Part shown: positions 910-28,599 of the stretch, in pieces
Position numbering within the stretch: the first letter of the stretch is position 1
How the letters are laid out: each line of letters opens with the position of its first letter
NCBI GenBank assembly: GCA_024278215.1
Contig: JAJRTR010000163.1
Location: forward strand, 1-33,824
DNA: 33,824 nucleotides
Direction: 5' to 3'
Source: a bacterium
GTDB lineage: Bacteria > UBP15 > UBA6099 > JAJRTR01
Notes under the pieces: model-generated
Databases searched by the model: none
Told to the model about the DNA's origin: nothing
Seen by the model: the letters and a program-made list of their open reading frames with translations, nothing else
Made by a program: the position numbers and the translations under genes

Positions 910-1087
910 GAGCCAATTGCAAAATTACGTTCGTAGCGAGGTCGAGCGAAATTGTTCGGAGCAAGGCGGAGGTGTAAAATCTTCGCAGGCGTACTTGTAG
1001 AGTACGTCGAGGACGATTTTGCGCCGACAACGCAGCTATGGACAATTGCAGCCGACCGCAGCAGAATCAGAATTTTGCAATTGTCTC
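910..1087 (+). mobile_element. 178-bp palindromic MITE-like repeat, copy 1
   Basis: This 178-bp segment recurs in inverted orientation at 10825-11002 with only 7 differences (about 96% identity). Its ends are inverted repeats, GAGnCAATTGCAAAAtt and the complement, and it is flanked by the direct repeat GATG (906-909 and 1088-1091; GATGG if one terminal base is shared). The two halves are imperfect complements of each other over about 70 nt, with CGTACT/AGTACG at the centre (990-1006), so the whole unit can fold into one long hairpin. It encodes no protein and no transposase lies in the window. A non-autonomous MITE is the best reading; a structured RNA repeat is the alternative. Confidence 0.8.
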
Positions 1088-10623: not shown

Positions 10624-11129
10624 TCCGCAGGCGCAGGGACCATACCGGAAGCCGGGATTCGGCAAACAACAAAACCCTCGAGCCGTTTGCATTATTATGA
10701 TAACCGGTCACTGAATCCACTTTCATACCGGAAATTGCCAGTTCAGACTATTTCATTACATCCTGTGAATGGTAACAATAATTATTTTGCAATAGGCTCG
10801 CAGAAAAAGTTCAGTCCCTTGAAGGAGCCAATTGCAAAAATCTGATTCTGCTGCGGTCGGCTGCTATTGTCCATAGCTGCGTTGTCGGCGCAAAATCGTC
10901 CTCGACGTACTCTACAAGTACGCCTGCGAGGATTTTACACCCCCGCCTTGCTCCGAACAATTTCGCTCGACCTCGCTACGAACATAATTTTGCAATTGCC
11001 TCGAAGGTTTATGATTTTTTTTTAGTTGTGGAAATAATAGGATTATCATGTTATGATTTATTGGCTTTAGCAGGAGACTTGTTATTCGATGTATCTTTTA
11101 GAATAAATGCTACAGGGAACATCTACGGT
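10624..11129. other. Intergenic region holding MITE copy 2
   Basis: 506 bases without a supported gene. 10624-10820 shows nothing I recognise beyond AT-rich sequence toward its end. 10825-11002 is the inverted 178-bp repeat. 11003-11129 is an AT-rich leader for the cytochrome gene with no convincing promoter; an open frame extends upstream of the cytochrome ATG to 11028 but lacks a signal-peptide-like start. Confidence 0.5.
10825..11002 (-). mobile_element. 178-bp palindromic MITE-like repeat, copy 2
   Basis: Same length as copy 1 (910-1087), opposite orientation, 7 differences. It is flanked by its own direct repeat, GAAG (10821-10824 and 11003-11006; GAAGG if one terminal base is shared), different from the GATG around copy 1, which argues for independent insertion rather than a segmental duplication. 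It lies between ilvN and the cytochrome gene. Confidence 0.8.
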
Positions 11130-12950
11130 ATGAAAAACATCAAGATTACAGTATCCATATTGCTTTTCACAACAACGCTTTTTTACGGTCTGATCCTGAG
11201 CGCGGCGGGTGGCGAGCACGGCAGCGAGCAGGCAGCGGTGCAGAATGCCGTCATCAGTGAGAAATCCGCATGTGATGTTTCGGACGACACACTAAGGTTT
11301 CTCTCGCCGGGCTGGCAGGAGGCGCACAAGGGTCTGGTCGAGGCCGGCAAACTTGATGGCTGTGACCGGAAGCAGTGTTACGCATGCCACATCTCGGCTG
11401 CGCCCCACGATTTCTCCGCACACCAGAGTAAGTATAAGGAAGATAGCAAATCCTGCCTGAGCTGCCATGACTACGATTCGTGCAACGAATGCCACCAGGC
11501 GTTCCGAGCCCATGGCGGCAATAAGGACTTTCTCGATCACGGCAAGTTTCTCGAAAAGTCGATGTCTTCGTCTTGCAAACAGTGCCACAGTGTCGACTGG
11601 TGCAACAAGTGCCACACCGAAAAGGGCGTCGACCTGCTGACAAACCACAGCCCGAATTTCAGACAGATGCACCCGGTTTTTCTCCCCAAGAAGCAATATA
11701 AGGAAAAAATCGAGAGTTGCACGCAATGCCACGGCCAGAAGTTCTGCATTCAATGCCATGAAAACCAGGGTAAGGATGTGCATCCGTACAAGTGGTACGT
11801 GGGACACGGCAGAAGAATGTCCGAACTGGCGGCGGGCGCGAAACCTGGCGAGATGGACCGATGCCTCGACTGCCACAAGACGGGCTTCTGCTCGACTTGC
11901 CACAAGAGCAGCGGCCTCGTCCGCACCGCGCACGAACCCAACTGGGTAGAGACACACAAGAGCGACCCGAAGTCGAAGAGTCCGATGTGCGTTTCATGCC
12001 ACACACCCGGCTACTGCTCGCGATGCCACGACATATCACTGCCGCACTCCGCGGAGTTTGCCGCCGACCACAAGAAGGCTGTTCTCGAAAAACCGGACAC
12101 CTGCAAGTCCTGCCACGAGCCGTCTTTCTGCGCGACATGCCACACGAAAAAGCTGAAACCCGCATCACACACGCCGGTCGAGTGGTACAAGAGCCACAAC
12201 AAAATGGCCGGCAAGTCGAAAGATTACTGCACTACTTGTCACAGCGACAAGAAGTTCTGCGGCTGGTGCCACGAAACTTCCACGATGAAGGTGACGCATA
12301 CGCCCGGCTGGAAAGAAAAACATGCGGACACGACAAATATGTCCGAACTCAAGGGCTGTGCTTACTGCCACGATAAAAGCTCATGCGATGAAAAATGCCA
12401 CAAAGACATCGAAGACAAGGCGAACGTCTCGGCCAGGCCGGACCACAGGATATGTTCCAACTGCCACGTCGACGACAAATGGACGTTCGCCGGTTCGGAC
12501 GCATGTGTCAAATGCCACAAGGATGCCACTCACCAGAATGACGAATCGAAACACGCGGGCGACTGCACCGACTGCCACACTGCGCATAAATGGAAGATAC
12601 CGAAGAAGGGCAACACGTGCGCGAGCGCGGCGTGTCACAAGCCCTATGCTGAAGAAGTCGCGAAAATAAAGGATCATGTTTCCGACAACTGCTCGAGCTG
12701 CCACAAGCCTCACGACTGGGGCGACAAGAGCAACTTCGATGTTTGCGGCGACTGCCACAAGATCGACGAATACGACAAGAACGGCATCAAAGCGCTTCAC
12801 CTGACCGGTGCCCACCAGATGTGCGGCGACTGCCATGATGCCCACAACGGCACGGTCAACGAACCCGACTCGTGCCTGCGTTGCCACGAGAAACTGCCGG
12901 ACGTCTGTGATCCCGACAAGCTCTGCACGGATTGCCATAAATTCAAATAA
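11130..12950 (+). CDS. Secreted multihaem c-type cytochrome, 24 CxxCH plus two variant sites
   Basis: A 606-residue exported electron carrier. An N-terminal signal (residues about 1-26, ending LILSAAGG) is followed by 24 CxxCH haem motifs by my count, one CX3CH (CDEKCH, 12384-12401) and one CX4CH (CASAACH, 12618-12638). Eight tandem diheme units (CxxCH-X4/5-CxxCH, then His-x-Pro-x-Trp/Phe-like and a further His) fill 11454-12401; the C-terminal third has single, more spaced sites. It probably moves electrons in the periplasm or outside the cell. No other respiratory or cytochrome maturation gene is adjacent. The ATG 11130 start is chosen because it begins the signal peptide and has AGGGAA (11114-11119) upstream. 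I do not recognise a named family. Confidence 0.93.
   Translation: MKNIKITVSILLFTTTLFYGLILSAAGGEHGSEQAAVQNAVISEKSACDVSDDTLRFLSPGWQEAHKGLVEAGKLDGCDRKQCYACHISAAPHDFSAHQSKYKEDSKSCLSCHDYDSCNECHQAFRAHGGNKDFLDHGKFLEKSMSSSCKQCHSVDWCNKCHTEKGVDLLTNHSPNFRQMHPVFLPKKQYKEKIESCTQCHGQKFCIQCHENQGKDVHPYKWYVGHGRRMSELAAGAKPGEMDRCLDCHKTGFCSTCHKSSGLVRTAHEPNWVETHKSDPKSKSPMCVSCHTPGYCSRCHDISLPHSAEFAADHKKAVLEKPDTCKSCHEPSFCATCHTKKLKPASHTPVEWYKSHNKMAGKSKDYCTTCHSDKKFCGWCHETSTMKVTHTPGWKEKHADTTNMSELKGCAYCHDKSSCDEKCHKDIEDKANVSARPDHRICSNCHVDDKWTFAGSDACVKCHKDATHQNDESKHAGDCTDCHTAHKWKIPKKGNTCASAACHKPYAEEVAKIKDHVSDNCSSCHKPHDWGDKSNFDVCGDCHKIDEYDKNGIKALHLTGAHQMCGDCHDAHNGTVNEPDSCLRCHEKLPDVCDPDKLCTDCHKFK
11454..12401 (+). repeat. 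Eight tandem diheme coding repeats
   Basis: Each unit of roughly 35-50 codons encodes CxxCH, four or five residues, CxxCH, then a basic/polar linker with a His-Pro-aromatic turn (for example SHTPVEW, THTPGW, AHEPNW) and another His that could be a distal haem ligand. Unit 8 has the second site altered to CX3CH. The pattern suggests growth by internal duplication. Confidence 0.75.
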
Positions 12951-14843: not shown

Positions 14844-16436
14844 TTACCTTTTTTTCCGCATCAGCGAAAGCAAGTATTTCCACGATTGAACCCTTGTCAT
14901 ATTACCCAGATAGAAACGAGCGAGTTCGCCGATGACGGCAATCCGGCTGACGGGCATGTCGAGACGGTAAGTTTCGGAAAAGCTGCCGGGGAGAAGGTCC
15001 GTTCGGAGTGTGCCATCGCTGTTGTAGAGTCCTTCTTCGGCCTTTTCGAGAAATGGGATATAGTATTTGTATGTTGCCTGGATCGGGTGATACTGATAGA
15101 AGGATTTTTTATTTTTGCCGTAGAAGATTCTGTATGATTCGGACATCTTTCTTTGCAGTGTGCTGGGGCGCATCTTCGCCGGATAGTGCACTACAAAATT
15201 TCCCGAGTAGAAACGCCAGTCGCGGTGTATGAACCTGTCGTCGGGCAGCGCCTGGGGCGCGCCGAGTACCCGTTCCCTTGTGGGGAAATCGTAGAGACTG
15301 CCGAAACCCCAGTTGTAAACACCGTGTTTCAGCACGAGAGCGAGTGCGCGGTCGATTGTGTTTTCATCGTCGTCGTCGGAGCCGAAAATAAAAAGCGGTT
15401 GTAGTTTGACATCGAAGCGACCAAATATTTCGAGGCACTCCTCGATGTCGCCGATGGACTGTTTTTTCTCGAAAAAGTCAAGAGTGGACGATTGCAGCGA
15501 CTCGATGCCGACGCCGATGCAGGCGCGGCCCGCGCGTTCGATGGCGTGCATCAGTTCTTCGTCGCGCGCGATGAAAATGCGGGCGAAGAAAAACATGTCG
15601 ACATCGCCGCCGAAACGCTGTTCCATGAGCCGAAATATTTCGAGCGCGCGTTCACGGTCGAGCGTGACATCGTTGTCGGCGAAGAAAACATATTTCGTTT
15701 TCAACCTGGAAAAAGACAACTCGATCTCGCGCACCACGAGTTCCGGCTCTTTTGTCCTGTACTTGCGGCCCAGTTCGTGTTTTACAAAACAGAACCTGCA
15801 CTCGAAAGGACATCCGCGCGAAGATTGTACGACAGCAATGTTGAAGCGCAGAACACCGTTGTGAATAGTGTCCTTGAGATAATACAACAGGCTCCTCGGA
15901 GTGTATCCTTCGACGATTCCCGGATCGGCGATCATGTCGAGTTTAGACACAAAACCGGCTGACGGGTTGTGCACCGCGCGGTCGTTGCTTCCGATATACG
16001 ACACGCCTTTGACGCCGGAAACGTCGCCGCCGTTTTTCAGCGTTTCGAGCAGTTCGAGGATTATCGCTTCGCCTTCGTTCCTGATAACATAATCGCAATG
16101 TTTCAGGCAGTCTTCGGGAAGTACACTGGCGTGCGAGCCGCCGAAAACAATCGGTGTGTCCGGACTCTCCGCGCGTATCCGATCCGCGTAGGCGTAGCCT
16201 TTGTGGGATGAAAACGACATGAGTGAAAAGCAGACGATGTCGGAATCCGCCACCCGCCGCCAGTCGATTTTACTACCGGATAATTCGCAATAAGTTTTGA
16301 CGTCGTAGCCAGCTTCGATCAGTGCGGTCGCGACGACGAGCAGTCCGTATCTTGGCATGAAAGCGCGGTAGGACGTCACCTGCAGGGGCAGGCTGTCGTC
16401 ATAAGGGCATATAATTGTGATTTTGTGTATTTCCAT
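14844..16436 (-). CDS. B12-binding-domain radical SAM protein (tandem copy B)
   Basis: A 530-residue class-B-type radical SAM protein. Residues about 1-140 form a cobalamin-binding-like Rossmann domain (SLMSFSSHKGY, GGSHASVLPEDC, RNEGEAII); the canonical DxHxxG loop is not evident. The [4Fe-4S] motif is Cys209/Cys213/Cys216 (RGCPFECRFC), followed by a TIM-barrel half with YVFFADNDVTLDRERA and CIGVGIESLQ. A C-terminal segment of about 150 residues (FYSGNFVVHYPAKMRP onward) is shared with its neighbour. These proteins use SAM, and often cobalamin, for methylation or C-C chemistry; the substrate is unknown. ATG 16436 lies inside the 3' end of the upstream paralogue (38-nt overlap), so the two are coupled. 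It is the last gene of the minus operon. Confidence 0.88.
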   Translation of the reverse strand: MEIHKITIICPYDDSLPLQVTSYRAFMPRYGLLVVATALIEAGYDVKTYCELSGSKIDWRRVADSDIVCFSLMSFSSHKGYAYADRIRAESPDTPIVFGGSHASVLPEDCLKHCDYVIRNEGEAIILELLETLKNGGDVSGVKGVSYIGSNDRAVHNPSAGFVSKLDMIADPGIVEGYTPRSLLYYLKDTIHNGVLRFNIAVVQSSRGCPFECRFCFVKHELGRKYRTKEPELVVREIELSFSRLKTKYVFFADNDVTLDRERALEIFRLMEQRFGGDVDMFFFARIFIARDEELMHAIERAGRACIGVGIESLQSSTLDFFEKKQSIGDIEECLEIFGRFDVKLQPLFIFGSDDDDENTIDRALALVLKHGVYNWGFGSLYDFPTRERVLGAPQALPDDRFIHRDWRFYSGNFVVHYPAKMRPSTLQRKMSESYRIFYGKNKKSFYQYHPIQATYKYYIPFLEKAEEGLYNSDGTLRTDLLPGSFSETYRLDMPVSRIAVIGELARFYLGNMTRVQSWKYLLSLMRKKR

Positions 16437-18054
16437 TATATGTCGGATTGGTACGCACTTTGTAGCTGCTGTTTGTTACAAGCGAAGCGAGTTGTTTCCA
16501 TGATTGTGGCCGCAGTATGTTCCCGGCATAAAAACGAGCGATTTCAACAAGCAGAGCCAGTCGGTTGACGGACACGCCGATATCGAATGTATCATACATG
16601 GGGCCGGGCAGCAAATGTTCCCGGAGTGTTCCATCATTATTGTACAATCCTGCTTCAGCCTTTTCCAGAAAGGATATATAGTTTCTGTAGGTCGCCCTGA
16701 TAGGATAATACTGATAAAAAGTGTTTCTGTTAAGGCTGTAGAACTTTCTGAGCACCGTTTCCATTTCCCTCTGCAACACGCTGGGGCGCATTTTTGCCGG
16801 GTAATGAACAACGAAATTTCCAGTATAGAAACGCCAGTCGCGATGGATGAACCTGTCGTCGGGCAAGACCTGCGGGTAGCCGAGGACTTTCCCCCTCGTC
16901 GGGAAATCGAAAAGGCTGCTGAAGCCCCAGTTGTAAACTTTGTGTTTCAGGACGAAAGCGAGGCTACGGCGCAGTGTCTTCTCCTCGACATTGTCCGAAC
17001 CGAAAATAAAAAGCGGTTGAATTTTTACATTGTATCTGCTGAATTCTTCGAGACAATATTCGATGTCGTGTATAGTTTGTTTTTTATTGAAATCTTCGAG
17101 CGTCTCAGGGGCTATAGATTCTATACCCACGCCTATACATGCTCTGCCTGCACGCTCGATAAGCCCCATCAGTTCTTGGTCGAGCGCGGTGGCGGCGCGA
17201 GTGAAAAAAAACATGTCTATGTCGCCGTGAAAACGTTGCTCGATGAGACTGAAAAGCTTGAGAGCATGCTTTCTGTTGACGGCGACATCGTTGTCTGCGA
17301 AAAAAACATAACGAGTTTTGAGCCTGTCCAGCGCAAGTTCGATTTCCCTGAGGACAAGTGCAGGTGATTTCGTGCGGTATCTCCGGCCAAGTTCTTGTTT
17401 GACAAAGCAGAATCTGCACTCGAACGGGCAGCCGCGGGATGTTTGCGCCACGGCGAAGTTAAAACGCAGAACGCCGTTTTTTAAAGTATCTCCGAAATAG
17501 GAAGTGAGGGTTCTCGGGGAATAACCTTCGATGAGCCCGGGATCAGCCACAATATCCAGGCTTTTGATAAAATCCGCCGGTGGGTTATGGACCGGTGTGC
17601 CGTCAGTGCCGATATACGATATGCCTTTCACTTCGGAAACATCGCCGCCGTTTTCAATCGCTTCAAGCAATTCGACAATTATCGCTTCGCCCTCATTTCT
17701 CACAACGTAGTCGAAGTGATCGAGACATTCTTCAGGCAGTACACTCGCATGCGCTCCGCCGACGATAATCGGTATTTCCGGGTTCATGCGCCTGATACGC
17801 GCCACGAACTCATAGCCCCTGCGCGATGAAAAGGACATGAGTGAGAAACATATAACATCCGATTCGGCAACCCGGCGCCAGTCCACCTTGCTACCGGAAG
17901 CTTCGCAATATGCTTTTACTTCATATCCGACATTTCGCAGTGTTGTGGCGATGGAAAGAAAACCGTAACATGGAAGATAGGCCCGATATGAGGCGACCTG
18001 TAATGGTATGCGCTTTTCGTATGGGCTTATCATGGTGATTTTATTAATGAACAA
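16399..18054 (-). CDS. B12-binding-domain radical SAM protein (tandem copy A)
   Basis: A 551-residue paralogue of the next gene downstream, 144 of the first 220 residues identical by hand count (65%), with the same Cys209/Cys213/Cys216 positions (RGCPFECRFC), the same YVFFADNDVAVNRKHA and the same C-terminal extension. The start is TTG 18054: it aligns with the Met of the paralogue (FINKITMISPY against EIHKITIICPY). The last 20 or so residues, after WKQLASLV, are polar and have no match in the paralogue, and run into the next gene. Two related but diverged copies suggest two successive or alternative reactions on similar substrates. Substrate unknown. Confidence 0.88.
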   Translation of the reverse strand: MFINKITMISPYEKRIPLQVASYRAYLPCYGFLSIATTLRNVGYEVKAYCEASGSKVDWRRVAESDVICFSLMSFSSRRGYEFVARIRRMNPEIPIIVGGAHASVLPEECLDHFDYVVRNEGEAIIVELLEAIENGGDVSEVKGISYIGTDGTPVHNPPADFIKSLDIVADPGLIEGYSPRTLTSYFGDTLKNGVLRFNFAVAQTSRGCPFECRFCFVKQELGRRYRTKSPALVLREIELALDRLKTRYVFFADNDVAVNRKHALKLFSLIEQRFHGDIDMFFFTRAATALDQELMGLIERAGRACIGVGIESIAPETLEDFNKKQTIHDIEYCLEEFSRYNVKIQPLFIFGSDNVEEKTLRRSLAFVLKHKVYNWGFSSLFDFPTRGKVLGYPQVLPDDRFIHRDWRFYTGNFVVHYPAKMRPSVLQREMETVLRKFYSLNRNTFYQYYPIRATYRNYISFLEKAEAGLYNNDGTLREHLLPGPMYDTFDIGVSVNRLALLVEIARFYAGNILRPQSWKQLASLVTNSSYKVRTNPTYNGNTQNHNYMPL

Positions 18055-18105
18055 AAGATACCCGGAACCTTTCGTTATTTTTCAGTTCGCACAATATGCA
18101 AACGG

Positions 18106-19224
18106 TCATATAATAATGTTCTCAAATGCTTCTTTCCAGCATATTTTTGAAAGCGGTGCGTCGAGCAGGTCGGCCAGCACGTGTTCGTCGTGCCTGTAGC
18201 AGCCTTTGCAGCCCGACAGTATCGTTCGATATTCGCTGCGGTTGTGCTCCATGAGGTCCGAAGCGCGGCGCACTGTTCGCAGTTCGCTGGGGTAGAAGCA
18301 GCACAGCGAGAAGACGCCTGCGGGTGAGATTACTATGTGCGCGGCGGATTCCGCTATGCAGCCTGCGTCGCTGCCTCCGCAAAGATAAGCGACCATGCCG
18401 GTCAGGAAACTTTCAGGGCCGACGACAAATCGCGGATGTTTCCTTTTCATATCGAGAAGTGCGGGCAGTCCGGCTGCGGCCTCTTCTGCACCCGGCTGTA
18501 GCTCCGGCAGATAGTTTAATTGGAACTTGACGCCGTCGACGCCGATGCTTTTCATCTCTTCGACGAATTGGGGCAACGTATCCATATTGTGGCGGTTGAC
18601 GACACACGCAATGATCACGGGGATACGTTTTCTTTTCTCAAGCAGCCGGCCGACACCTGCGACGGCTTTCGCGTAGCTGCCTTCGCCCCTGATTATATCG
18701 TTCGCTCTTTCGGTGCCGTCGATGGAGACCACACACCTGTGGAACCCCGTTTCGATGTCCGCGATGTTGTCGTAATCCAGCAGGGTGCCGTTCGTTATCA
18801 GGATCGTGAACATGCCGCCCGCACGTGAGGCGGCGGACAGGTCGAAAAGGTCCTCGCGCAGCAGGGGCTCTCCACCTGCAATAATGAGCATCGGTGTGCG
18901 AATGCGCGCGAATCCACGGATGAGTTCCAGCGCGTCGGCCGTTCCGAGTTCATCGTCGCTCCCGCGCCGGTCGACGCCTCTGAACATCCTGTCGAACGAA
19001 CACCCCGCACAATGCAGATTGCAACTCGACGTCACCAGGTAGCTGCAAGCGACAGGCAGCATTCTGCCGGTCCTGTGTTCGACGAGCTTCAATAAAAATC
19101 TGGCGGCTGTTTTCAAAGGAAGCATTTCTATGCGCCCGGCTCCGGATACGACATTATCATCGGCGCTTCCGCGCCAATCGGATACTACATGTGAATTATA
19201 GCGATATTCACCGAACTTGTGCAT
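18106..19224 (-). CDS. Radical SAM protein with SPASM-like C-terminal cysteines
   Basis: A 372-residue enzyme without a B12 domain. The cluster motif is Cys68/Cys72/Cys75 (SSCNLHCAGC), followed by IIAGGEPLLRED (the SAM-binding GGE), VVSIDGTERANDIIRG and, at the C-terminus, clustered cysteines (CGGSDAGC, CC, CKGC) suggesting auxiliary Fe-S binding as in SPASM/twitch proteins. The CNLxCAGC core also recalls HpnH-type enzymes. It is the first gene of the minus operon, 51 nt before the next. ATG 19224 lacks a Shine-Dalgarno; ATG 19125 (MLPLKTAARFL) is an alternative start. A perfect inverted repeat lies 10 nt upstream of ATG 19224. Substrate unknown. Confidence 0.85.
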   Translation of the reverse strand: MHKFGEYRYNSHVVSDWRGSADDNVVSGAGRIEMLPLKTAARFLLKLVEHRTGRMLPVACSYLVTSSCNLHCAGCSFDRMFRGVDRRGSDDELGTADALELIRGFARIRTPMLIIAGGEPLLREDLFDLSAASRAGGMFTILITNGTLLDYDNIADIETGFHRCVVSIDGTERANDIIRGEGSYAKAVAGVGRLLEKRKRIPVIIACVVNRHNMDTLPQFVEEMKSIGVDGVKFQLNYLPELQPGAEEAAAGLPALLDMKRKHPRFVVGPESFLTGMVAYLCGGSDAGCIAESAAHIVISPAGVFSLCCFYPSELRTVRRASDLMEHNRSEYRTILSGCKGCYRHDEHVLADLLDAPLSKICWKEAFENIII

Positions 19225-19234
19225 TTGCGAACAT

Positions 19235-19258
19235 CAAACAGTAAAACCATACTGTTTG
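19235..19258. promoter_or_regulatory. Perfect palindrome in divergent promoter region
   Basis: CAAACAGTA (19235-19243) and TACTGTTTG (19250-19258) are exact complements separated by six bases, between the minus-strand start at 19224 and the plus-strand start at 19366. It could be a repressor operator serving both operons, or a hairpin in the minus-strand mRNA only 10 nt before its start codon. The order of half-sites is opposite to the E. coli LexA box. Confidence 0.5.
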
Positions 19259-19329
19259 TATCGTGTATTAGCGAGGCCGGCGCACCGGTGTTGTCCCTTT
19301 TCGTTTCATGCCGCGCCGCTGCCGCGAAA

Positions 19330-19359
19330 TTACAATATGCGCAACATATCAGTTATAAT
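19330..19359 (+). promoter_or_regulatory. Promoter for the plus-strand rSAM/GT-C operon, possibly leaderless
   Basis: A perfect TATAAT (19354-19359) has TTACAA (19330-19335) 18 nt upstream. The expected start of transcription coincides with ATG 19366, and no Shine-Dalgarno precedes this ATG, so the mRNA may be leaderless. Confidence 0.42.
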
Positions 19360-19365
19360 TGTATT

Positions 19366-20781
19366 ATGAGTTCTCCGGATATGCTGCTTGTCGTGCCGCC
19401 GTTTGATTTCTCTGTAATCAATTCGGCAACGGAGCGCAGTTCGAAGCAGGCGGGCTACTACTTGTATTACCCACCGGCCGGACTGTGTTCCATCGCGGCT
19501 GTGCTCGAAGGCGCCGGTTTCGGCGTCGAGATAATCGACGGGCAGGTGGACGCAGGTACGGAAGGCCGTTTTATAGACATGATAGTCGCGGCGCGGCCCT
19601 CGATTATAGGGATCGGGGTGACGACGCCCGCGCTGCCGGTCGTCCGCCGGGTGATCGGCGCGATAAAAAGCCGCCTGGATGTACCGATAGTTGCGGGCGG
19701 GCCACACGTTTCGTGCGATCCGGAGATCGTTGCGCCGCTGGGTGCTGATTATGGTGTCGCGGGCGACGGCGAATATGCGATGAGGGCAATCGCCGAATCG
19801 CTGTTGCGCGGCCTGCCACTCGCGGCGGGTGAGCCCGGTGTTGTTGTGCCCGGTGCTGATTTCACGGGGGGGCCCGCGCTCGTCGATCTCCATTCGCTGC
19901 CGTTTCCTGCGCGCCATAAACTGAAAAACCCCGACGCTTATTTCAATCCCTTTGTCGGATCGCGCACGACGACGCTGCTTACCGCGCGGGGCTGCCCGTT
20001 CCACTGTTCTTTCTGCTCGCGCAATGCCTCGATGGGCGCGTACAGGCCGCTGGAACCCGGGCGCGCGCTCGAAGAGATGGAGCTTGTCGACAGTGAGGGC
20101 TATGGATTCGTTTCTATTCTGGATGAAACATTCACCTTCGAGCGCGACCGGGTGATGGAACTGGCGCGTGAGATGACGAAAAGAGACATAAAATTCCTGT
20201 GGTCGTGCCAGACACGCGCCGACCTCGTCGACGAAGAACTGATGAGAACGTTGCGGGCAGCGGGTTGCATAAATATTTCTTTCGGTGTCGAGGCGGGCGA
20301 CCCGGATGTGCGTGACAGTCTGGATAAGAGGATCAACGACGATGCCTACGACAGAGCCTTCCGCGCCTGCCGTGCAGCTGGTGTCAGCATAAACGCATTT
20401 GTAATCATCGGCAGCCCCGACGAAACGAGGGCGCAGGTCGAGCGGAGCATCGAGCGGGTGATCGAACTCGAACCCGACTACGCTGTCTATAATGTCGGCA
20501 CCCTGTTTCCCGGCACAAAAGAATATGACGCAAGGGTGGAGCGCGGGGAGTGCGAACGCGGGATATGGAACGCTTACATGCGTGGCGGGGAGCCGCTTCG
20601 CGTGCTGTCGCGCACGATGGGCCGTGCCGAGCTGGCGGCGCTGTTGCGGCACGGCTACACGCGATTCTACATGAGACCCGCGTATATGCTGAGGAGATTG
20701 TTGAGGATAAGGTCTCTGCTCGACATCTCCGTGCTTTTTCGTCAGGCACGCACGGTGATTTCCGATTATGTCGTGTCATGA
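19366..20781 (+). CDS. B12-binding-domain radical SAM protein
   Basis: A 471-residue protein. The N-terminal cobalamin-binding-like domain spans about residues 5-145 (LLVVPPFDF, GLCSIAAVLEGAGFGVEIIDG, IIGIGVTTPA, IVAGGPHVSCDPE, GDGEYAMRAI). The radical SAM core has Cys210/Cys214/Cys217 (RGCPFHCSFC), then SILDETFTFERDRV and INISFGVEAGDPDVRDSLDK. The C-terminus (from about residue 400) is a short basic helical segment. It is distant from both tandem pairs nearby. ATG 19366 is chosen over the open frame beginning at 19219, because the family N-terminus begins here and a TATAAT sits just upstream. First gene of the plus-strand operon. Substrate unknown. Confidence 0.88.
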   Translation: MSSPDMLLVVPPFDFSVINSATERSSKQAGYYLYYPPAGLCSIAAVLEGAGFGVEIIDGQVDAGTEGRFIDMIVAARPSIIGIGVTTPALPVVRRVIGAIKSRLDVPIVAGGPHVSCDPEIVAPLGADYGVAGDGEYAMRAIAESLLRGLPLAAGEPGVVVPGADFTGGPALVDLHSLPFPARHKLKNPDAYFNPFVGSRTTTLLTARGCPFHCSFCSRNASMGAYRPLEPGRALEEMELVDSEGYGFVSILDETFTFERDRVMELAREMTKRDIKFLWSCQTRADLVDEELMRTLRAAGCINISFGVEAGDPDVRDSLDKRINDDAYDRAFRACRAAGVSINAFVIIGSPDETRAQVERSIERVIELEPDYAVYNVGTLFPGTKEYDARVERGECERGIWNAYMRGGEPLRVLSRTMGRAELAALLRHGYTRFYMRPAYMLRRLLRIRSLLDISVLFRQARTVISDYVVS

Positions 20782-20844
20782 ACAGAAAATGGTACAAAGT
20801 GCGAAAAATTATTATTTGCAGCGAACGAAAGAGATACTTCTGAA

Positions 20845-22776
20845 TTGACACCACGGGAAAACACACAACGATACGGAATCGGAAGACGCAACAGTGTTAT
20901 CGCGGCGCTTGTGTTTCTGGTGGCGGCGTGTGTGTACATGTGGGGCGCTGCTCCCGATGTTGGATGGGGCGACGGCGCGGACTTTGTGCTCACCGCCCAT
21001 TATCTCGGTGTGCCGCATCCGACAGGGTATCCGCTTATCGCATTACTGGGCAAGCTTGCGGAATATATCCCGGTCGGCACGCTCGCGTTTCGTGTCGGCC
21101 TGATGAGCGTTTTCGCGGGCGCGGCAGCGGCATCCCTGTTTTTTATGCTCGCCGCGTCACTTTCGCGACAGACCGGCGGCGGCACGATATTTCCCCTTTA
21201 CGCCACTGTCGTAATGATCCTTTCGTCTTTCCTTCTCGATCAGGCGATTACTATCGAGGTCTACACGATAAACCTGTTTTTCTGCCTGTGTATTCTCGCG
21301 CTTTCCGGACCGCTGACAGGCGGCGGATCACTGCGCACACTGATGATGCTCGTGATTGTCGCGTGCATCGGGCTGGGCAATCACGGCACCCTCATTTTTC
21401 CAGCGGTGCTGCTCGGCTTCATCGGGCTGTTTGCGTTAAGGCGCGGCAGAATTGTTGCGGTCGCGACTGCCTCTTTCCTTGTTCTGACAGGGTTCACACT
21501 GTATTTGTGCCTGCCGTTGTTCTCGGCGCGCACAGATATATTCGACTGGAATTCACCAGCGAACCCCGCGAACCTGCCGACGCTTTTGAGCGGATACGAC
21601 TTCTGGGTTGTCGGCGAATACAGGACGGCGCTGATGTGGCTGAACACGAAGCTGCTGGCGGGCTCGATAGCGCGACAAACGTGGCCGCTGCTGATGGCAG
21701 GCGCGCTGTTTTTCGCTTTCGCGAAAAGCGTCGCGCGCGGTGCGAAGTGGACGCTTGCAGGTGTATTCGCGCTGTCCGCTTTTTTCCCGGTTTTGTATCC
21801 GACGCACGAGAAGGAAGCGTTTTTTCTCATTGCATACGCGGTGTTCCTGCTTGCGGCGGCTGTCGGGGGCGCGGCGGCACTGGGCGTGGTGAAGCGCAGG
21901 CATGGCGGGGCGGGCCGCGCGGGCTCTATAACTGCGTTTGTGGTGATTATTGCGCTTGCGCATGTTTATGTTTTGAGCGCGAATCTTACAACCGGAAAAG
22001 CGTCGGCAAACAGGACCGACACGACGCCGGAAACCTACTCGAAGCTCATATTTAAAAGCGCGCGGCGCGACGCGCTCATTTTCGTCGACCACGTCGCCGA
22101 CGACGCGATAGCGCCGCCTCTGTATTTCCAGTTCGAGGGCGGCGCGCGGCGCGACACATTCATTTTCTACCGCCTGTATCTGGCTTTTCCGTGGTGGCGG
22201 GCGAACATGAGAGCACGCGCCGCGCAACTGGGCGACGGTGTCATTATTCCGGAAATAGATTTCGATGCGGAGAAGTTGAAAAATTATAAGATTTCGGTCG
22301 AAGAATATGAGCGGCTGCATGAGGGGAAGACGCTGAATACGGTCAGCATAGATATACAGACAAAGAAAATATATGAGGCGAATGTGAGGCGGCGACCGGT
22401 GTATATCAATACCCCGGCGCGTTTCCGCCGCTCGGTGATCAGCGAGGACGTGCCGATTCTGCTCGATGGTTTCCTGTTCAGGCTGGGGGGCTCGAAGGCG
22501 CGGGGTGAGTTTGACAGGCCGGTGCCGGCGCACGGTGTTTTTGACTCGGTAATATTCGATTATTTCACGGAGCGGGCGTACAATTATTACAGCAGGGACG
22601 ATACGAAGGGCTTTGCCGCCGCTCTCGAGGACGCACTGAAATATGAAGATAAGTGCTGGGTTTTCGGAGAACTCGCCGGTGCGTACAGGCAGCTTGGAGA
22701 AAGGGAGAAGTCGGAACGATTCCTGGACAGATATGAGGGATGCGGAGCGCGTGACATATTAAATGATATTTATTAA
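20845..22776 (+). CDS. DUF2723 GT-C-type membrane glycosyltransferase
   Basis: A 643-residue membrane protein. After the first helix (about 18-38), GWGDGADFVLTAHYLGVPHPTGYPL (in two parts, residues about 40-65) is the DUF2723 signature with acidic residues in the first extracytoplasmic loop, as in lipid-sugar-dependent GT-C enzymes. About ten hydrophobic segments follow to residue 380, then a soluble domain to the end. The family is expected to transfer sugar from a polyprenyl-phosphate donor outside the cytoplasmic membrane; donor and acceptor are unknown here. TTG 20845 is the only reasonable start; no in-frame ATG precedes the first helix. Its last 14 bases overlap the next radical SAM gene. 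Confidence 0.83.
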   Translation: MTPRENTQRYGIGRRNSVIAALVFLVAACVYMWGAAPDVGWGDGADFVLTAHYLGVPHPTGYPLIALLGKLAEYIPVGTLAFRVGLMSVFAGAAAASLFFMLAASLSRQTGGGTIFPLYATVVMILSSFLLDQAITIEVYTINLFFCLCILALSGPLTGGGSLRTLMMLVIVACIGLGNHGTLIFPAVLLGFIGLFALRRGRIVAVATASFLVLTGFTLYLCLPLFSARTDIFDWNSPANPANLPTLLSGYDFWVVGEYRTALMWLNTKLLAGSIARQTWPLLMAGALFFAFAKSVARGAKWTLAGVFALSAFFPVLYPTHEKEAFFLIAYAVFLLAAAVGGAAALGVVKRRHGGAGRAGSITAFVVIIALAHVYVLSANLTTGKASANRTDTTPETYSKLIFKSARRDALIFVDHVADDAIAPPLYFQFEGGARRDTFIFYRLYLAFPWWRANMRARAAQLGDGVIIPEIDFDAEKLKNYKISVEEYERLHEGKTLNTVSIDIQTKKIYEANVRRRPVYINTPARFRRSVISEDVPILLDGFLFRLGGSKARGEFDRPVPAHGVFDSVIFDYFTERAYNYYSRDDTKGFAAALEDALKYEDKCWVFGELAGAYRQLGEREKSERFLDRYEGCGARDILNDIY

Positions 22777-24136
22777 CCCTGATTGTTTTCACATATACAG
22801 ATTCCCGTCGATGGGCATGATGTACATCGCTTCGCATCTCGCGGCGCGGGGGCGGCGGGTGAAATATGTGGACCCGAATTTCGACCGCAACTGGTGCGAC
22901 ACACTCGACGCCGAGGTGGACAAACACGAGTGGGTGGGCATCACCGCGAATGTGCTGTCGATTATGCCGGCGATGGAAATGGTGAAATATGTCCGGGAGA
23001 AGTATCCGGAAAAGAAAATCATTATGGGAGGTCCATACCCGGCGATAAACCGTGAGGAAATACTTGACGAGTATGCGGACGCCGTCGCTTTCGGCGAAGC
23101 GGAAACGACATGCGCGGAACTGGAAGCCGGGACGGAATTGAAAGACATAAAAGGACTGGCCTGGCGCGACAACGGCGCGGCACATATCAACGAAGCGAGG
23201 CCGCTGCACGAGGACCTCGACGCGCTCGCGTTCCCCGACTGGTCGATGGGGCATGTCGACAGATATGTTATCGACCACTCGAAGCGAAACCCGGTGCTGC
23301 CGCTGCTCACGAGCCGCGGCTGTCCGTTCAACTGCATATTCTGCGCGTCGGATGTGACATTCGGCAACCGCATAAGATACCGCTCGATAGACAACGTGAC
23401 GGCGGAAGTCGAGGAGCTTGTCGGGAAGCACGGAGGGCGCGAGATACATATATGGGACGACAATTTCACACTGCGCCGAAAGCGCGTTATGGAGTTCTGC
23501 GAAGCGCTTATGAAATTGAAACTGCGAGGTATAAGTTTCAAAGTGCCCGCAGGGATCAAGCCGGATATCGGCGACTACGAGATGTTCCGCGCGATGAAGA
23601 GGGCCGGTTTCTATTCTGTTTGTGTGGCGGTGGAGACGGGTGACCAGGAGATAATGAAAAAACTCGGCAAAAAGGTCCGGGTGGACAAAGTTAAAGACGT
23701 CGTCGCCGCAGCGCGGCGCGCCGGGCTGCTGGTGAACGGCTTTTTTATGCTCGGCCTGCCGTTCGACACGGAAGAGACGATGCGGCGCAACATCGACCAC
23801 GCCTGTGCGCTGCCGCTGCACGAGGCGAACTTTTTTATTACGGTTCCTTTCCCCGGCACCGAGTTGTACGACATCGTGCGCGAGGAAGGGAAATTCCTTT
23901 TCCATAACGAACAGAATCTATACGAGGACGGCTACCTGCTGGGACGCGCGACGTGCGAGATGCCGGGTTTCGACGCTGAGACGGTCGAGCGAATGTTCAA
24001 GCTGGCAAACCGCCGCTTCTATTTCAGGCCGCTGGTGATCGTCGCGCTCATTTTTAAACGGATATATTCGCCGATGCACTTTTTCGTCATGGTTCGAAAT
24101 GCGTTTCGCATCTTGTTCAGGGGGCGTAAATTCTGA
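22763..24136 (+). CDS. B12-binding-domain radical SAM protein (tandem copy C)
   Basis: A 457-residue protein. It starts MIFINPDCF, then a B12-binding-like domain (HEWVGITANVLS, KKIIMGGPYPAI, ADAVAFGEAE), the cluster motif Cys187/Cys191/Cys194 (RGCPFNCIFC), IHIWDDNFTLRRKRVMEFC, and FYSVCVAVETGDQEIMKKLGKK. A C-terminal helical piece with basic and hydrophobic residues (FRPLVIVALIFKRIYSP) may touch the membrane. Family members methylate or couple carbon centres; many act on lipids or lipid-linked substrates. The start overlaps the DUF2723 gene by 14 nt, and the stop abuts the next start (TGAATG). Substrate unknown. Confidence 0.88.
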   Translation: MIFINPDCFHIYRFPSMGMMYIASHLAARGRRVKYVDPNFDRNWCDTLDAEVDKHEWVGITANVLSIMPAMEMVKYVREKYPEKKIIMGGPYPAINREEILDEYADAVAFGEAETTCAELEAGTELKDIKGLAWRDNGAAHINEARPLHEDLDALAFPDWSMGHVDRYVIDHSKRNPVLPLLTSRGCPFNCIFCASDVTFGNRIRYRSIDNVTAEVEELVGKHGGREIHIWDDNFTLRRKRVMEFCEALMKLKLRGISFKVPAGIKPDIGDYEMFRAMKRAGFYSVCVAVETGDQEIMKKLGKKVRVDKVKDVVAAARRAGLLVNGFFMLGLPFDTEETMRRNIDHACALPLHEANFFITVPFPGTELYDIVREEGKFLFHNEQNLYEDGYLLGRATCEMPGFDAETVERMFKLANRRFYFRPLVIVALIFKRIYSPMHFFVMVRNAFRILFRGRKF

Positions 24137-25510
24137 ATGATTTTCATCAACCCGGACTGCTTCCAGGGATACCGTTTCCCCTCTATCGGCCTGCTGTATA
24201 TGGCCGCCGCGCTCGAGCGGAACGGGATGCCTGTCGAGTATATCGACCCGAACTACGACCCCGCGTGGCGGCGGCGACTCGACGACGCCGCGCCACGCCA
24301 CGAGTGGATCGGGATTACTGCCAACATCCTTTCACTCAAGCCGGCGCTGGAGTTGTCGGCGCTGGTGCGCGCGGAATATCCCGGCAAAAAAATCATAATG
24401 GGAGGACCGTATCCGTCGATAAAGTATGCGGACCTGATACCGGAACACGCCGACGCGGTGGCTGTAGGCGAGTCGGAAGAAACAATAATCGATGTTGCGA
24501 ACGGGCGTCCGTCAGGTGAAATAAAAGGCGTCGCGTGGAGCGACGGCGGCACGGTTATTTTCAATGGGCGGCGCGACCTGATAAAAGATATAGACACGAT
24601 AGCGCCACCCGCGTGGCGCCTGGGCCATGTGAAGAAATACCGGCTCGAGCACACGAAGAGAAACCCGGTGCTTCCGCTGCTCACCAGCCGGGGATGCCCG
24701 TTCAAATGTATATTCTGCGCGTCGCGCGTAATATTCGAGTCGCGTATACGGTACCGTTCCATCGACAGAGTCATCGAGGAGTTCGACGAGCTCACAGTGG
24801 AGCACGGAGCGCGGGAAGTGCATATCTGGGACGACAACTTCACGCTGCGGCGCGACCGAGTGATGGAGTTCTGCGAGCGGCTGGCGACGCGCCGTAAGAG
24901 AGGCGTGAGCCTGATGATACCGTCGGGCATAAAGCCGGATATTGGCGATTACGAGATGTTCCGGGCGATGCGCCGGGCGGGTTTCTATTCTGTGTGCATC
25001 GCGGTGGAGTCTGGCGACCGAGAGATAATGAAGAGCCTTGGGAAGAAGGTGGACGTGGGAAAGGTGCGCGGAGTGATCTCCGCCGCGCGGCGCGCGGGGT
25101 TGTTGCTGAACGGTTTTTTCATGCTCGGGCTGCCTGATGATACTGAAGAAACGATGCGGCGCAATATCGAACATGCCTGTTCGCTGCCGCTGCACCAGGC
25201 GCTGTTTTTTGTGACGATACCGTTTCCGGGCACCGAACTTTACGATATTGTAAAAGAGAAGGGGAAATTGCTGTATGATAATGAGGTAGAGTTGTACGAA
25301 CGCGGCTACTTCCAGGGACGCGCGACGTGCGAGATGCCGGGCTTCGACGCCGGGACGCTCGAGAAGATGTACAGGCTGGCGAACCGCAGGTTCTATTTCA
25401 GGCCGGCGGTGCTGGCGGCGCTGTTCTTTAAGAAACTGCACAGTCCGCTGCAATTATTTTTCATGATGCGGAAGTGGTTCAGGGTAGTGATGAGAGGCAG
25501 ACAATTCTGA
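24137..25510 (+). CDS. B12-binding-domain radical SAM protein (tandem copy D)
   Basis: A paralogue of the preceding gene with exactly the same length (457 residues) and cysteine positions (187/191/194, RGCPFKCIFC); 103 of the first 190 residues are identical by hand count (54%), and the core and C-terminus look closer. It keeps MIFINPDCF, HIWDDNFTLRRDRVMEFC, MIPSGIKPDIGDYEMFRAM and GFFMLGLPDDTEETMRRNI. ATG 24137 directly follows the previous stop. Its own stop shares a base with the next ATG (TGATG), so the operon is tightly coupled. Two copies with no length change suggest selection for two related reactions. Substrate unknown. Confidence 0.88.
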   Translation: MIFINPDCFQGYRFPSIGLLYMAAALERNGMPVEYIDPNYDPAWRRRLDDAAPRHEWIGITANILSLKPALELSALVRAEYPGKKIIMGGPYPSIKYADLIPEHADAVAVGESEETIIDVANGRPSGEIKGVAWSDGGTVIFNGRRDLIKDIDTIAPPAWRLGHVKKYRLEHTKRNPVLPLLTSRGCPFKCIFCASRVIFESRIRYRSIDRVIEEFDELTVEHGAREVHIWDDNFTLRRDRVMEFCERLATRRKRGVSLMIPSGIKPDIGDYEMFRAMRRAGFYSVCIAVESGDREIMKSLGKKVDVGKVRGVISAARRAGLLLNGFFMLGLPDDTEETMRRNIEHACSLPLHQALFFVTIPFPGTELYDIVKEKGKLLYDNEVELYERGYFQGRATCEMPGFDAGTLEKMYRLANRRFYFRPAVLAALFFKKLHSPLQLFFMMRKWFRVVMRGRQF

Positions 25511-28500
25511 TGACGGAGCTGAAAAAGAAGAAATTGCCGGTCGACCGCTGGGTGCCGCCGCTGCTGTTTATCGCCGTGTTCGGTTACATGCTGCTGTGCG
25601 CCGTGCCCGATCTGTACTGGGGCGACAGCGCGGAGATGACGGCGGTCTCGTGCGATATGGGTGTCGCGCATTCACCGGGCTACCCGCTGTATATAATGAT
25701 ATCGAAGTTGTTCGGCGCGCTTCCCTTTGCGACCTATCCGTTCCGTATAAACGTCATGAGCGCGTTTTTCGCGGCGCTGGCAGTGGTGCTTATATACAGG
25801 CTGGCGACGATGCTGATAGGGGGTTCACGAGTCGCCGGGCTCGTGGCGGCGGTCGGGCTGATGGGGTGCCGTGAGTTCGTGCGTTTCGGGCTGTACGCGG
25901 AAGTCTACGCGCTGCATATAGCGCTGTTGGCGGGGGTGCTGCTGCTTGTGGCCGGTCACTACAGGCGCGGTGGCGACCTGCGAATAGTTTTCGCGCTCAT
26001 GCTGGCGGGTATCGGGATGACGCACCACATAATGATGATATTCGTGCTGGGCGCGGTGCTGTTCTACATGCTGATCGCGCCGGGGCACAGGCTGCGGATC
26101 GCGGCCGGAGTGCCGGTGCTGTTGTGCGGCGAGGGAGTCATACTGATATTCCGCACACACGCGACAGCGCTTCAGACGATGCAGTATTTCCAATACGGGC
26201 TGTATGCAGCGGTCGCGCTCTTTGCAATATACACGGGTATAGTCTTCTGGAAGAAAAAGAATGCCGCGTCGACGCTGAAACTCGCGTTCGCCGCGCTCTT
26301 CATCCCCGCGCTGTGCCTGTTGCTGTTTGTCTATATCCCGTTCGCTGCTTCGCGCAGGCCGGTATCCGACTGGTGGGCACCGAGTTCCGCCGCGAACTTC
26401 ATCAGCCTGCTGCTTGTGCAGGGTTACGCTTCGACATTCCCGGCGAGCGGTCTCGAATGGCTGCAAAGATTGAACCTGATGGGAGTGCTGCTGCAAGTGC
26501 CATTTCTGATTATGCTCGTGGCGCTGCCGGGGCTGGTATATCTGCTGTGGAAAAAGACGCGCGCGGGCCTGTTCCTGCTCGTGTTCATGGTGGCGGCGTT
26601 CGCCGGTTCGCTGCTGGTGGCGCACGGCAAGCCGGACGCGCTGAGGCTGCCGGTGTACGTGACGATATACGTCATGGCGGGCGTCGGCGCGGGCACGATA
26701 ATCGGCTGGCGGTTTCTCCAGGGAAGTGTGTTCAAGAGGGTGTTGAGAACGGTTGCGCTGGTTATTGTGGGCGTGATTCTCGCGCTGAATCTCGCCGACA
26801 CCGATCTGCGATACATGAACCGCAGCGGCGGCTCGCGCGAACTGGGCGAGGCTATTATCAACCAGGTGCTGCCGGGCAGTTTCCTTTTCATCGGCACCAA
26901 CTCGCCCAGCATCATGGGCTACCTCGAATCATGTGAGCCGGAAAAGGTGTCGGATAAAGATATTACCATGATCCCCGTCTCTTTCCTTCCTTTCGAGTGG
27001 AAGCTCGATCAGTTGCGGCGGAAGTATCCGGATGTGATTTTCCCGGCACCGCCCGCCGAATGGGACAACAACCCCATCTTCAGGGTCGACGATCCCCTGC
27101 GCGCAAGATATGCCGAGGAGATTCTCGAAAGCAACAGCAAGAAGACCGGCGTGTACTCGGACTTTCAGTTCCTGACCGACGAATACGGGCGGTTCACGAT
27201 TCCACACGGTGCCGCCTACCAGCTTGTGCCCACTGACGTATCCCCTGATCGTATCAAGGAAATGATGGACGCCGATGTGCCGCCGGAATGGAATAAAGAG
27301 CAATATCGCGACGTTGTCAGCGCTACCAATATCGCTTCGGTATACAACGAGCGCGGAAAGATATTTTTCGAATATGCGCTGAGCGACATGGACGAAACGC
27401 TGGTCCGCAGGGCACTGGACGAATTTAAAAAAGCGTTGGGAATTATTGACACCGCGCTCGACAAGTATGATCGCGCTCTAAGAGTCGAAAAAGCCGCCAT
27501 AGATACTATGAGCAATGTTCTCGACAGGAAGAAAACCGGTACGGAAGATGAGCCCGGTATCGACGTAAATATTCAATTGGACCTTGTGGGCGAAAAAGAC
27601 GAAGATGAAGACAAATGGAGAGTGTTTTACGGCCAGTTGCGCGAGTTGCTCGACCTGCGCGCCGAAGTGATGTCCAACAGGGGCCAGTGCCGCATCTTTT
27701 ACGGGCAGTCGAGAGAAGGGCTGAAGCTTATGCAGAAGGCGATCCGGCTCTCGCCGCTGAACCCCCGCCTGTACGAAACACTCGCCACGGCTTACTACCG
27801 CACCCAGTCGGCCGCCGGGTCGACCAGGGCCATCGCGCTCTGGAGCGCCGTCACAAAACTCGACCCGAACAACGCGCGCGCCTACCACAACATAGGGAGC
27901 GCGCTGGTCGGAATACGTCAGGCGGAAAAAGCGATACCTTATTATACGAAAGCTATCAGCATCGACCCGGACTACAAATCCGCTTACATCAACCTCGGGC
28001 GCGTCTTCAACAAGCTGGGCAACTGCGCCATGGCCGCCACCACGCTCGAACAGGCGAAAAAACAATTGCCGCAGGACCTCACGATCAGGAGCGAGCTCGT
28101 GCAGCAATATGCCGAGTGCGGCATGCAGCACCTTTACGCGGCGGAAGTCGAATCCATGATCGCCGATTTCCCGCGCAATAAAGAACTCTTCTACACACTC
28201 GGCATCATTTTCAGGAACGTCAAACAGGTGGGCAACCTCGCTAAAGCTATCGAGGCGCTCAAGGACCTCGACCCGGACTTCCCCGTCCGTACACTTTTTA
28301 CCTCCATGCAGGATTGCCGCGAAGCGATTCCACTGATCGAGGACCTCCTGAAATACGTTTCCGACGATCCGTACCTGCGGCTCGAGTTGAGCCTGCGCTA
28401 CGGGGCGTGCGGAGAAGTCGATAAAGCTATAAAGGTGATGGAATATATCGTCGACAATTACCCGTCCCTTACGGCGGCCCCGATAATGCTCGAAAGAATG

Positions 28501-28599
28501 AAAGACCCGAATGCCAAAACCCTGCTCGCGCCCGACATGCCGGACATCGGCGACGGGGCTGCGGATTATTACGAAAAGTACAAGTTGCAGCAACCGTGA
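25510..28599 (+). CDS. DUF2723 GT-C membrane protein with C-terminal TPR domain
   Basis: A 1029-residue protein. The N-terminal half is DUF2723: YWGDSAEMTAVSCDMGVAH and SPGYPLYIMI near residues 35-65, then about a dozen hydrophobic segments to about residue 440. A soluble region follows, with an acidic stretch (VGEKDEDEDKW near residue 700), then at least four TPR-like helical repeats (RLYETLATAYYRT, ARAYHNIGSALVG, KSAYINLGRVFNK, KELFYTLGIIFRN) to about residue 920. The TPR part probably faces the extracytoplasmic side and binds a partner or acceptor. Start ATG 25510 shares a base with the preceding stop; ATG 25474 would lie inside the upstream gene. Second GT-C of the operon, with the rSAM pair between the two. 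Confidence 0.85.
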   Translation: MTELKKKKLPVDRWVPPLLFIAVFGYMLLCAVPDLYWGDSAEMTAVSCDMGVAHSPGYPLYIMISKLFGALPFATYPFRINVMSAFFAALAVVLIYRLATMLIGGSRVAGLVAAVGLMGCREFVRFGLYAEVYALHIALLAGVLLLVAGHYRRGGDLRIVFALMLAGIGMTHHIMMIFVLGAVLFYMLIAPGHRLRIAAGVPVLLCGEGVILIFRTHATALQTMQYFQYGLYAAVALFAIYTGIVFWKKKNAASTLKLAFAALFIPALCLLLFVYIPFAASRRPVSDWWAPSSAANFISLLLVQGYASTFPASGLEWLQRLNLMGVLLQVPFLIMLVALPGLVYLLWKKTRAGLFLLVFMVAAFAGSLLVAHGKPDALRLPVYVTIYVMAGVGAGTIIGWRFLQGSVFKRVLRTVALVIVGVILALNLADTDLRYMNRSGGSRELGEAIINQVLPGSFLFIGTNSPSIMGYLESCEPEKVSDKDITMIPVSFLPFEWKLDQLRRKYPDVIFPAPPAEWDNNPIFRVDDPLRARYAEEILESNSKKTGVYSDFQFLTDEYGRFTIPHGAAYQLVPTDVSPDRIKEMMDADVPPEWNKEQYRDVVSATNIASVYNERGKIFFEYALSDMDETLVRRALDEFKKALGIIDTALDKYDRALRVEKAAIDTMSNVLDRKKTGTEDEPGIDVNIQLDLVGEKDEDEDKWRVFYGQLRELLDLRAEVMSNRGQCRIFYGQSREGLKLMQKAIRLSPLNPRLYETLATAYYRTQSAAGSTRAIALWSAVTKLDPNNARAYHNIGSALVGIRQAEKAIPYYTKAISIDPDYKSAYINLGRVFNKLGNCAMAATTLEQAKKQLPQDLTIRSELVQQYAECGMQHLYAAEVESMIADFPRNKELFYTLGIIFRNVKQVGNLAKAIEALKDLDPDFPVRTLFTSMQDCREAIPLIEDLLKYVSDDPYLRLELSLRYGACGEVDKAIKVMEYIVDNYPSLTAAPIMLERMKDPNAKTLLAPDMPDIGDGAADYYEKYKLQQP

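Follow-up and report, generated by a model that had tools for sequence, protein, structure and literature searches.

The cytochrome gene and its surroundings

The window, by which we mean the whole stretch of 33,824 nucleotides analyzed, carries on its plus strand an open reading frame (ORF) at positions 11130 to 12950 that starts with ATG, codes for 606 amino acids plus a stop, and lies between ilvB and ilvH on one side and a Gfo/Idh/MocA gene on the other. An in-frame GTG at 11028 is an alternative start that would add 34 residues, but the start at 11130 was favored because the N terminus that it gives (MKNIKITVSILLFTTTLFYGLILSAA) resembles a signal peptide. According to hydropathy, this signal-peptide-like segment comprises residues 1 to 26 (11130 to 11207, plus strand), the cleavage point being approximate. 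The hydropathy of the protein peaked at residue 6 (1.91) and reached 0.19 beyond residue 60, and the scan revealed no second hydrophobic helix downstream of the signal-peptide-like start.

Recounting from the ORF gave 24 CxxCH motifs, one CX3CH, and one CX4CH in the 606 residues, exactly the figures of the original prediction. All 26 CH dipeptides of the protein end a haem motif, with a cysteine 3 to 5 residues upstream, and three further cysteines (48, 78, and 593) lie outside the motifs. By chance, the mature part would be expected to hold a mean of 0.47 CxxCH (maximum of 5 in 20,000 shuffles). Without residues 1 to 26, the chain has one haem motif for roughly every 22 residues, and the histidines outside the motifs number 26 versus 26 motifs, a count that leaves out H30, which is near the signal peptide. 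The protein has what characterizes a multihaem c-type cytochrome, namely, an export signal and a series of CxnCH motifs, for each of which a distal ligand is potentially available.

Among the Pfam models, Cytochrome_C7 (PF14522) matched in three stretches with 52.1 bits (cut-off, 24.8), which places the protein in the c7/c3 superfamily, while the match to domains II/IV of MtrC/MtrF stayed under its cut-off (26 versus 30). The sole NCBIfam match, to the DmsE/MtrA decahaem family (TIGR03508), reached 18.8 bits versus a cut-off of 192.2, and membership in that family was ruled out by this score. No Pfam or NCBIfam model over its own cut-off spanned the diheme array described below; the best PF14522 stretch (residues 536 to 587) is C terminal to it.

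Two other features of the window were recorded. A repeat of some 178 bp, dispersed through the genome, occurs at 10825 to 11002 (plus strand), ending 127 bases upstream of the cytochrome start, and again at 910 to 1087 (minus strand). At least 41 matches were found in the genome, comprising the query, 39 copies at 92 to 98% identity (the second window copy included), and one short piece; this number comes from the 40 of 457 initial candidates that were scored, and the true one may be higher. Several copies lie at contig ends. As single-stranded DNA, the repeat folds better than 200 of 200 shuffles (z = −3.9); it was absent from the seven loci of relatives, and an Rfam scan of the window gave no match, the repeat included. 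Farther downstream, positions 14844 to 25507 hold six radical SAM genes, five of them with a B12-binding domain, with one TMEM260-like gene in their midst (20845 to 22773) and another after them (25474 to 28596).

Architecture, homologs, and variant haem sites

The cytochrome family was present in six of the seven genomes of the phylum in the collection searched. The closest homolog is encoded in G002, a genome from another family of the same order (contig C6; L039:2294-4579, minus strand), and is identical to the window protein at 204 of 507 positions (40%) over window residues 63 to 588. All 25 alignable haem motifs are kept in it; the 26th (residues 599 to 603) lies outside the alignment, the G002 protein ending without it. 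Likewise kept are 25 of the 26 non-motif histidines, H468 being lost. Since motifs and histidines are conserved in this way, the window protein is likely, to judge from its sequence, to bind 26 bis-His haems. The G002 protein itself has 32 motifs (27 CX2CH, one CX3CH, and four CX4CH), with extra haem sites at the front and an N-terminal hydrophobic helix (hydropathy, 2.68); a scan of this protein that began at residue 19, counted from the predicted start, gave no match to NapC/NirT (PF03264) at an E value of ≤0.001.

Eight tandem diheme units occupy residues 109 to 424 (11454 to 12401, plus strand), each built around a CxxCH-x4/5-CxxCH pair, with the first cysteines at 109, 149, 197, 245, 287, 325, 367, and 410. 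In units 1 to 7 each pair is followed by two histidines (e.g., H268/H276 and H347/H356), which are likely the distal ligands; in unit 8 it is followed by a single one (H439). The nine sites after the array (residues 442 to 603; 12453 to 12938, plus strand) are spaced differently from the pairs and in a c7/c3-like manner. This bore out the predicted layout of eight diheme units and a differently spaced C-terminal part, with one refinement, a single haem site ahead of the array (CYACH, residues 83 to 87; 11376 to 11390, plus strand). Alignment showed that the G002 homolog has a full pair there (CSKCH-x4-CWGCH), with C78 of the window protein in the place of the first motif of that pair; the first unit of the window cytochrome is therefore a degenerate ninth pair.

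Growth by duplication, as had been proposed from the layout, is supported by best matches of 35 to 56% identity between units within the window protein. Units 3 to 8 best match units 4 to 9 of the G002 homolog, in order, and the sequences thus speak for an ancient, collinear array and against a recent one; for unit 1 as for unit 2, the best score is with G002 unit 2, which in the case of unit 2 is tied with unit 3. Relative to the G001 homolog, the order holds for units 1 to 3 and not throughout, so the number or order of units has changed since. AlphaFold2 models were unusable, both for the full mature protein with one relative (L026; mean pLDDT, 32.8; pTM, 0.18) and for a pair of diheme units modeled from an alignment with the remaining six (mean pLDDT, 54.5; pTM, 0.34).

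The homologs in genus g2 (genomes G001, G003, G004, and G006) have 22 CxxCH motifs (23 motifs in total in G001), and in G001 the diheme units continue to the C-terminal end. Purifying selection was evident in this genus: its four genomes form six possible pairs, three of which gave a dN/dS of 0.04.

The two variant motifs are CDEKCH (residues 419 to 424; 12384 to 12401, plus strand), seen in the ORF as the second site of unit 8, and CASAACH (residues 497 to 503; 12618 to 12638, plus strand), a later site; in both the final CH is intact, as predicted. Whether orthologs keep them received a split answer: G002, at about 40% identity, has CSQTCH and CASKDCH, while the genus g2 homolog of G001 has CX2CH at both places. 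The g2 state, together with the unusual nature of both motifs, would suit a protein with only 24 haems, in which the two sites are dead or are sequencing errors. We give this reading next to no credence, as the G002 homolog keeps both variants at 40% identity, by which sequencing errors were ruled out as their source, and as haem is attached to both types of motif in MmcA of Methanosarcina acetivorans (in the accessible part of PMC11024163). The predicted maximum of 26 is hence the better count. The remark that CX3CH is rare was fair, but the site need not be a special one: three more sites that are CxxCH in the window protein are CX4CH in the G002 homolog, and loop length therefore varies at equivalent haems. 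CX3CH is also known in ImcH and some CymA homologs (PMC6295460, available part). Most likely, CX3CH and CX4CH are haem sites of the usual kind whose loop is longer. Since CX2CH, CX3CH, and CX4CH replace one another at equivalent haems among the homologs, these proteins provide a clean natural test of haem attachment to the longer motifs.

Genome G002 holds further genes of this kind. A second diheme-repeat cytochrome (L041:5088-6914, contig C325) has 28 haem motifs, nine diheme units, and an N-terminal hydrophobic helix, and no rnf genes were seen on its 9.6-kb contig. On contig C512 (L042:1144-11943) there are six multihaem cytochrome genes with 4, 9, 24, 11, 28, and 4 CxxCH, which include one cytochrome b561 domain and one NapC/NirT domain and have a CcmF-like gene nearby.

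The diheme unit beyond the phylum

A profile of three homologs (A4) run on 386 genomes at an E value of ≤1e-12 matched 27 of them. Six of these belong to the phylum (E ≤ 1e-190), and the other 21, from elsewhere, reach 4e-19 at best. The diheme-unit ORFs outside the phylum have 8 to 14 haems and at most four units (23 loci, including L026 and the second locus of one genome); three other ORFs, with 18 to 23 haems, have no diheme unit by the pattern used. As to long diheme arrays, 9 of 12 genomes in the phylum of G250 were matched, none better than an E value of 6e-18 and all in open frames of 275 to 345 amino acids. A search of genome contigs added one relative, from a Geobacteraceae metagenome-assembled genome (9 haems), and none was found in viral contigs.

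In 17 of 19 flanked regions outside the phylum, an ORF of 398 to 504 amino acids lies directly upstream of the short diheme cytochrome and on the same strand (ORFs picked by eye; the regions assessed were all but L097 and L101). Sixteen of these 17 ORFs resemble one or more of the others (phmmer, E ≤ 1e-3); among the 10 scanned, 4 gave weak matches to porin or outer-membrane families, none over the cut-off. Because of these porin-like ORFs, the diheme unit appears to reside elsewhere mostly in porin-cytochrome-like gene sets. The short homologs beside porin-like and cytochrome genes have a layout similar to that of the Geobacter dodecahaem cytochromes ExtA/ExtG; compared by description, the window protein contains roughly double their number of haems and lacks a porin neighbor (PMC6148476, as far as accessible).

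The family profile gave nine matches to PDB entries up to an E value of 0.01, among them 6r2q_A (E = 2.3e-6), which we take to be MtrA of the MtrCAB complex, although the match table labels it otherwise. This match and the upstream ORFs could indicate that the window cytochrome is likewise the periplasmic or trans-outer-membrane part of a conduit of the porin-cytochrome type that serves extracellular electron transfer. Such a role seems improbable, however, since the window locus has ilvBH and the Gfo/Idh/MocA gene in place of an adjacent outer-membrane porin gene, the DmsE family score is far below its cut-off, and neither MtrB_PioB nor the diheme-linked porin profile A5 was found in any of the seven genomes of the phylum (for A5 a weak zero, with no positive control).

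A subunit of a polymerizing extracellular filament, like the OmcS or OmcZ nanowires, might also be expected to have an export signal and many closely spaced haem sites. In cytochrome filaments, haem ligands can be shared between subunits; here, with one non-motif histidine per haem, there is no missing ligand for a neighbor to supply. None of the nine PDB matches is a nanowire cytochrome (OmcS, OmcE, or OmcZ), and the hydrophobic N-terminal helix of the G002 homolog suits an inner-membrane anchor. We therefore regard a filament as very improbable.

Linkage to rnf and a proposed role

Rnf is usually described as a ferredoxin:NAD ion pump. In the relatives, the gene order is rnfC, -D, -G, -E, -A, and -B, then rseC on the opposite strand, and then the cytochrome, which was found just beyond rnfB-rseC in five of the six genomes that hold it, the exception being the window genome. 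The order was checked by domains in G001 (all but rnfD) and G002 and read from ORF order in G003 and G004, with rseC domain scanned in G003 and G006; in G006, a contig that starts inside the rnf operon carries rnfE (part)-A-B-rseC-cytochrome, with rnfC on another contig. Because rseC intervenes on the opposite strand, rnf and the cytochrome probably do not form one transcript in the relatives. RnfC and the cytochrome were both present in six of the seven genomes and both missing from G005, whose genome is 80% complete.

The window genome has a complete rnfCDGEAB operon on another contig (C90, L056:6597-12958), unlinked to the cytochrome (C139), and tblastn against the C90 stretch detected no cytochrome or remnant beside it. 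There, rnf is followed by 1.3 kb, a flagellin gene (L056:14286-15581), and then rseC, while in the relatives rseC comes next and the cytochrome after it. In all three genomes scanned for domains, RnfB has 699 amino acids and includes, as a fusion, an NAD(P)-linked flavoprotein (Fer4_20 plus Pyr_redox_2), at L056:10862-12958 (window genome, C90), L039:5301-7400, and L040:5440-7536.

Known systems offer several points of comparison, here drawn from the accessible parts of the sources. By analogy, the closest working precedent for an Rnf-linked cytochrome is MmcA, from the M. acetivorans rnf operon, whose seven sites (five CxxCH plus a CX3CH and a CX4CH) were all shown by liquid chromatography-tandem mass spectrometry to bear haem and which passes Rnf electrons to methanophenazine, AQDS (anthraquinone-2,6-disulfonate), or Fe3+ (PMC11024163). 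Like the window protein, it is exported and has, besides canonical sites, a single CX3CH and a single CX4CH; like the genes of the relatives, its gene is linked to rnf. Compared by description, it differs in having 7 haems in 476 amino acids, in being archaeal, and in being encoded by the first gene of the operon (PMC11024163). Multihaem cytochromes linked to rnf are also known from a bacterial genus, Desulfovibrio (PMC4287179, PMC11434368), and resemble the window family in this respect. They have about 10 haems, however, and by description no clear Rnf role in Desulfovibrio alaskensis, where DhcA, the decahaem cytochrome encoded in the rnf operon, barely affected fitness and was considered unnecessary for Rnf electron transport (PMC4215793). 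For this reason, rnf synteny is no proof of partnership. Finally, the PCC3 giant cytochromes of iron oxidizers, with up to 85 haem sites, share with the window protein repeat units and a haem density (22 to 39 residues per haem) for which a function as wires was proposed but, compared by description, are accompanied by a porin and a protein of the inner membrane (PMC5566968). Large haem numbers as such are already known, the reported maximum having been 45 in 2010 and 85 in 2017 (PMC5566968).

We propose, with a probability of about one-half, that the protein is an exported periplasmic 26-haem bis-His cytochrome that serves Rnf by conducting electrons across the periplasm and by storing charge. 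Electrons would exit Rnf on its periplasmic face, which bears the flavins (or enter there if Rnf reverses), hop along the haem chain, and be passed on at its far end. Haem spacing in a linear chain is 8 to 10 Å per haem, at which a linear chain of 26 haems would measure 20 to 26 nm, about the width of the periplasm. The occupancy of every site by haem, the continuous and linear chain, the partnership with Rnf in this organism, the direction of flow, and the terminal acceptor are points that we infer. The motif count, the conserved motifs with a further conserved histidine for each haem, the export signal, the synteny with rnf-rseC in the relatives, and the joint absence in one genome argue for the proposal; the unlinked position in the window genome, and the fact that the joint absence comes from a single incomplete genome, argue against it. 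An extracellular acceptor is unsupported, since no electron-exporting porin was found in the phylum.

Alternatively, the cytochrome could be a general periplasmic store and exchanger of electrons, a capacitor like the large c3/Hmc-type cytochromes, fed by several donors (quinol, Rnf, and an octahaem/four-haem NrfH-like pair of the window genome) with no dedicated partnership with Rnf. That pair (contig C58, L043:7183-9133) presumably resembles the hydroxylamine-oxidoreductase type. The isolation of the window gene between ilvBH and Gfo/Idh/MocA, a haem density at the storage or wire extreme, and other multihaem cytochromes in the genome (15 haems on C109 and 6 on C120, besides the 8- and 4-haem pair) are in keeping with this idea, as is the DhcA precedent (PMC4215793, accessible part). 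The order-wide rnf-rseC synteny in five of six genomes with the cytochrome and its shared absence with RnfC from the seventh speak against it, and we hold it to be possible but somewhat doubtful.

The Rnf-serving conduit may be extended, as a distinctly tentative suggestion, to a bacterial variant of Rnf that bears on its periplasmic side a single-chain, periplasm-spanning wire of 22 to 32 haems. Through this wire, the ferredoxin- or NAD(P)H-driven ion pump would exchange electrons directly with an acceptor far from it, at the outer membrane or outside, and would need neither soluble carriers nor quinone nor a porin conduit. No rnf-linked cytochrome with more than 10 haems was found in the literature, of which subscription papers were mostly outside the search, and this is weak evidence of novelty. 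If conserved throughout this small phylum, a link of Rnf to cytochromes of 22 to 32 haems would give bacteria one more path by which ferredoxin electrons reach the periplasm or the outside.
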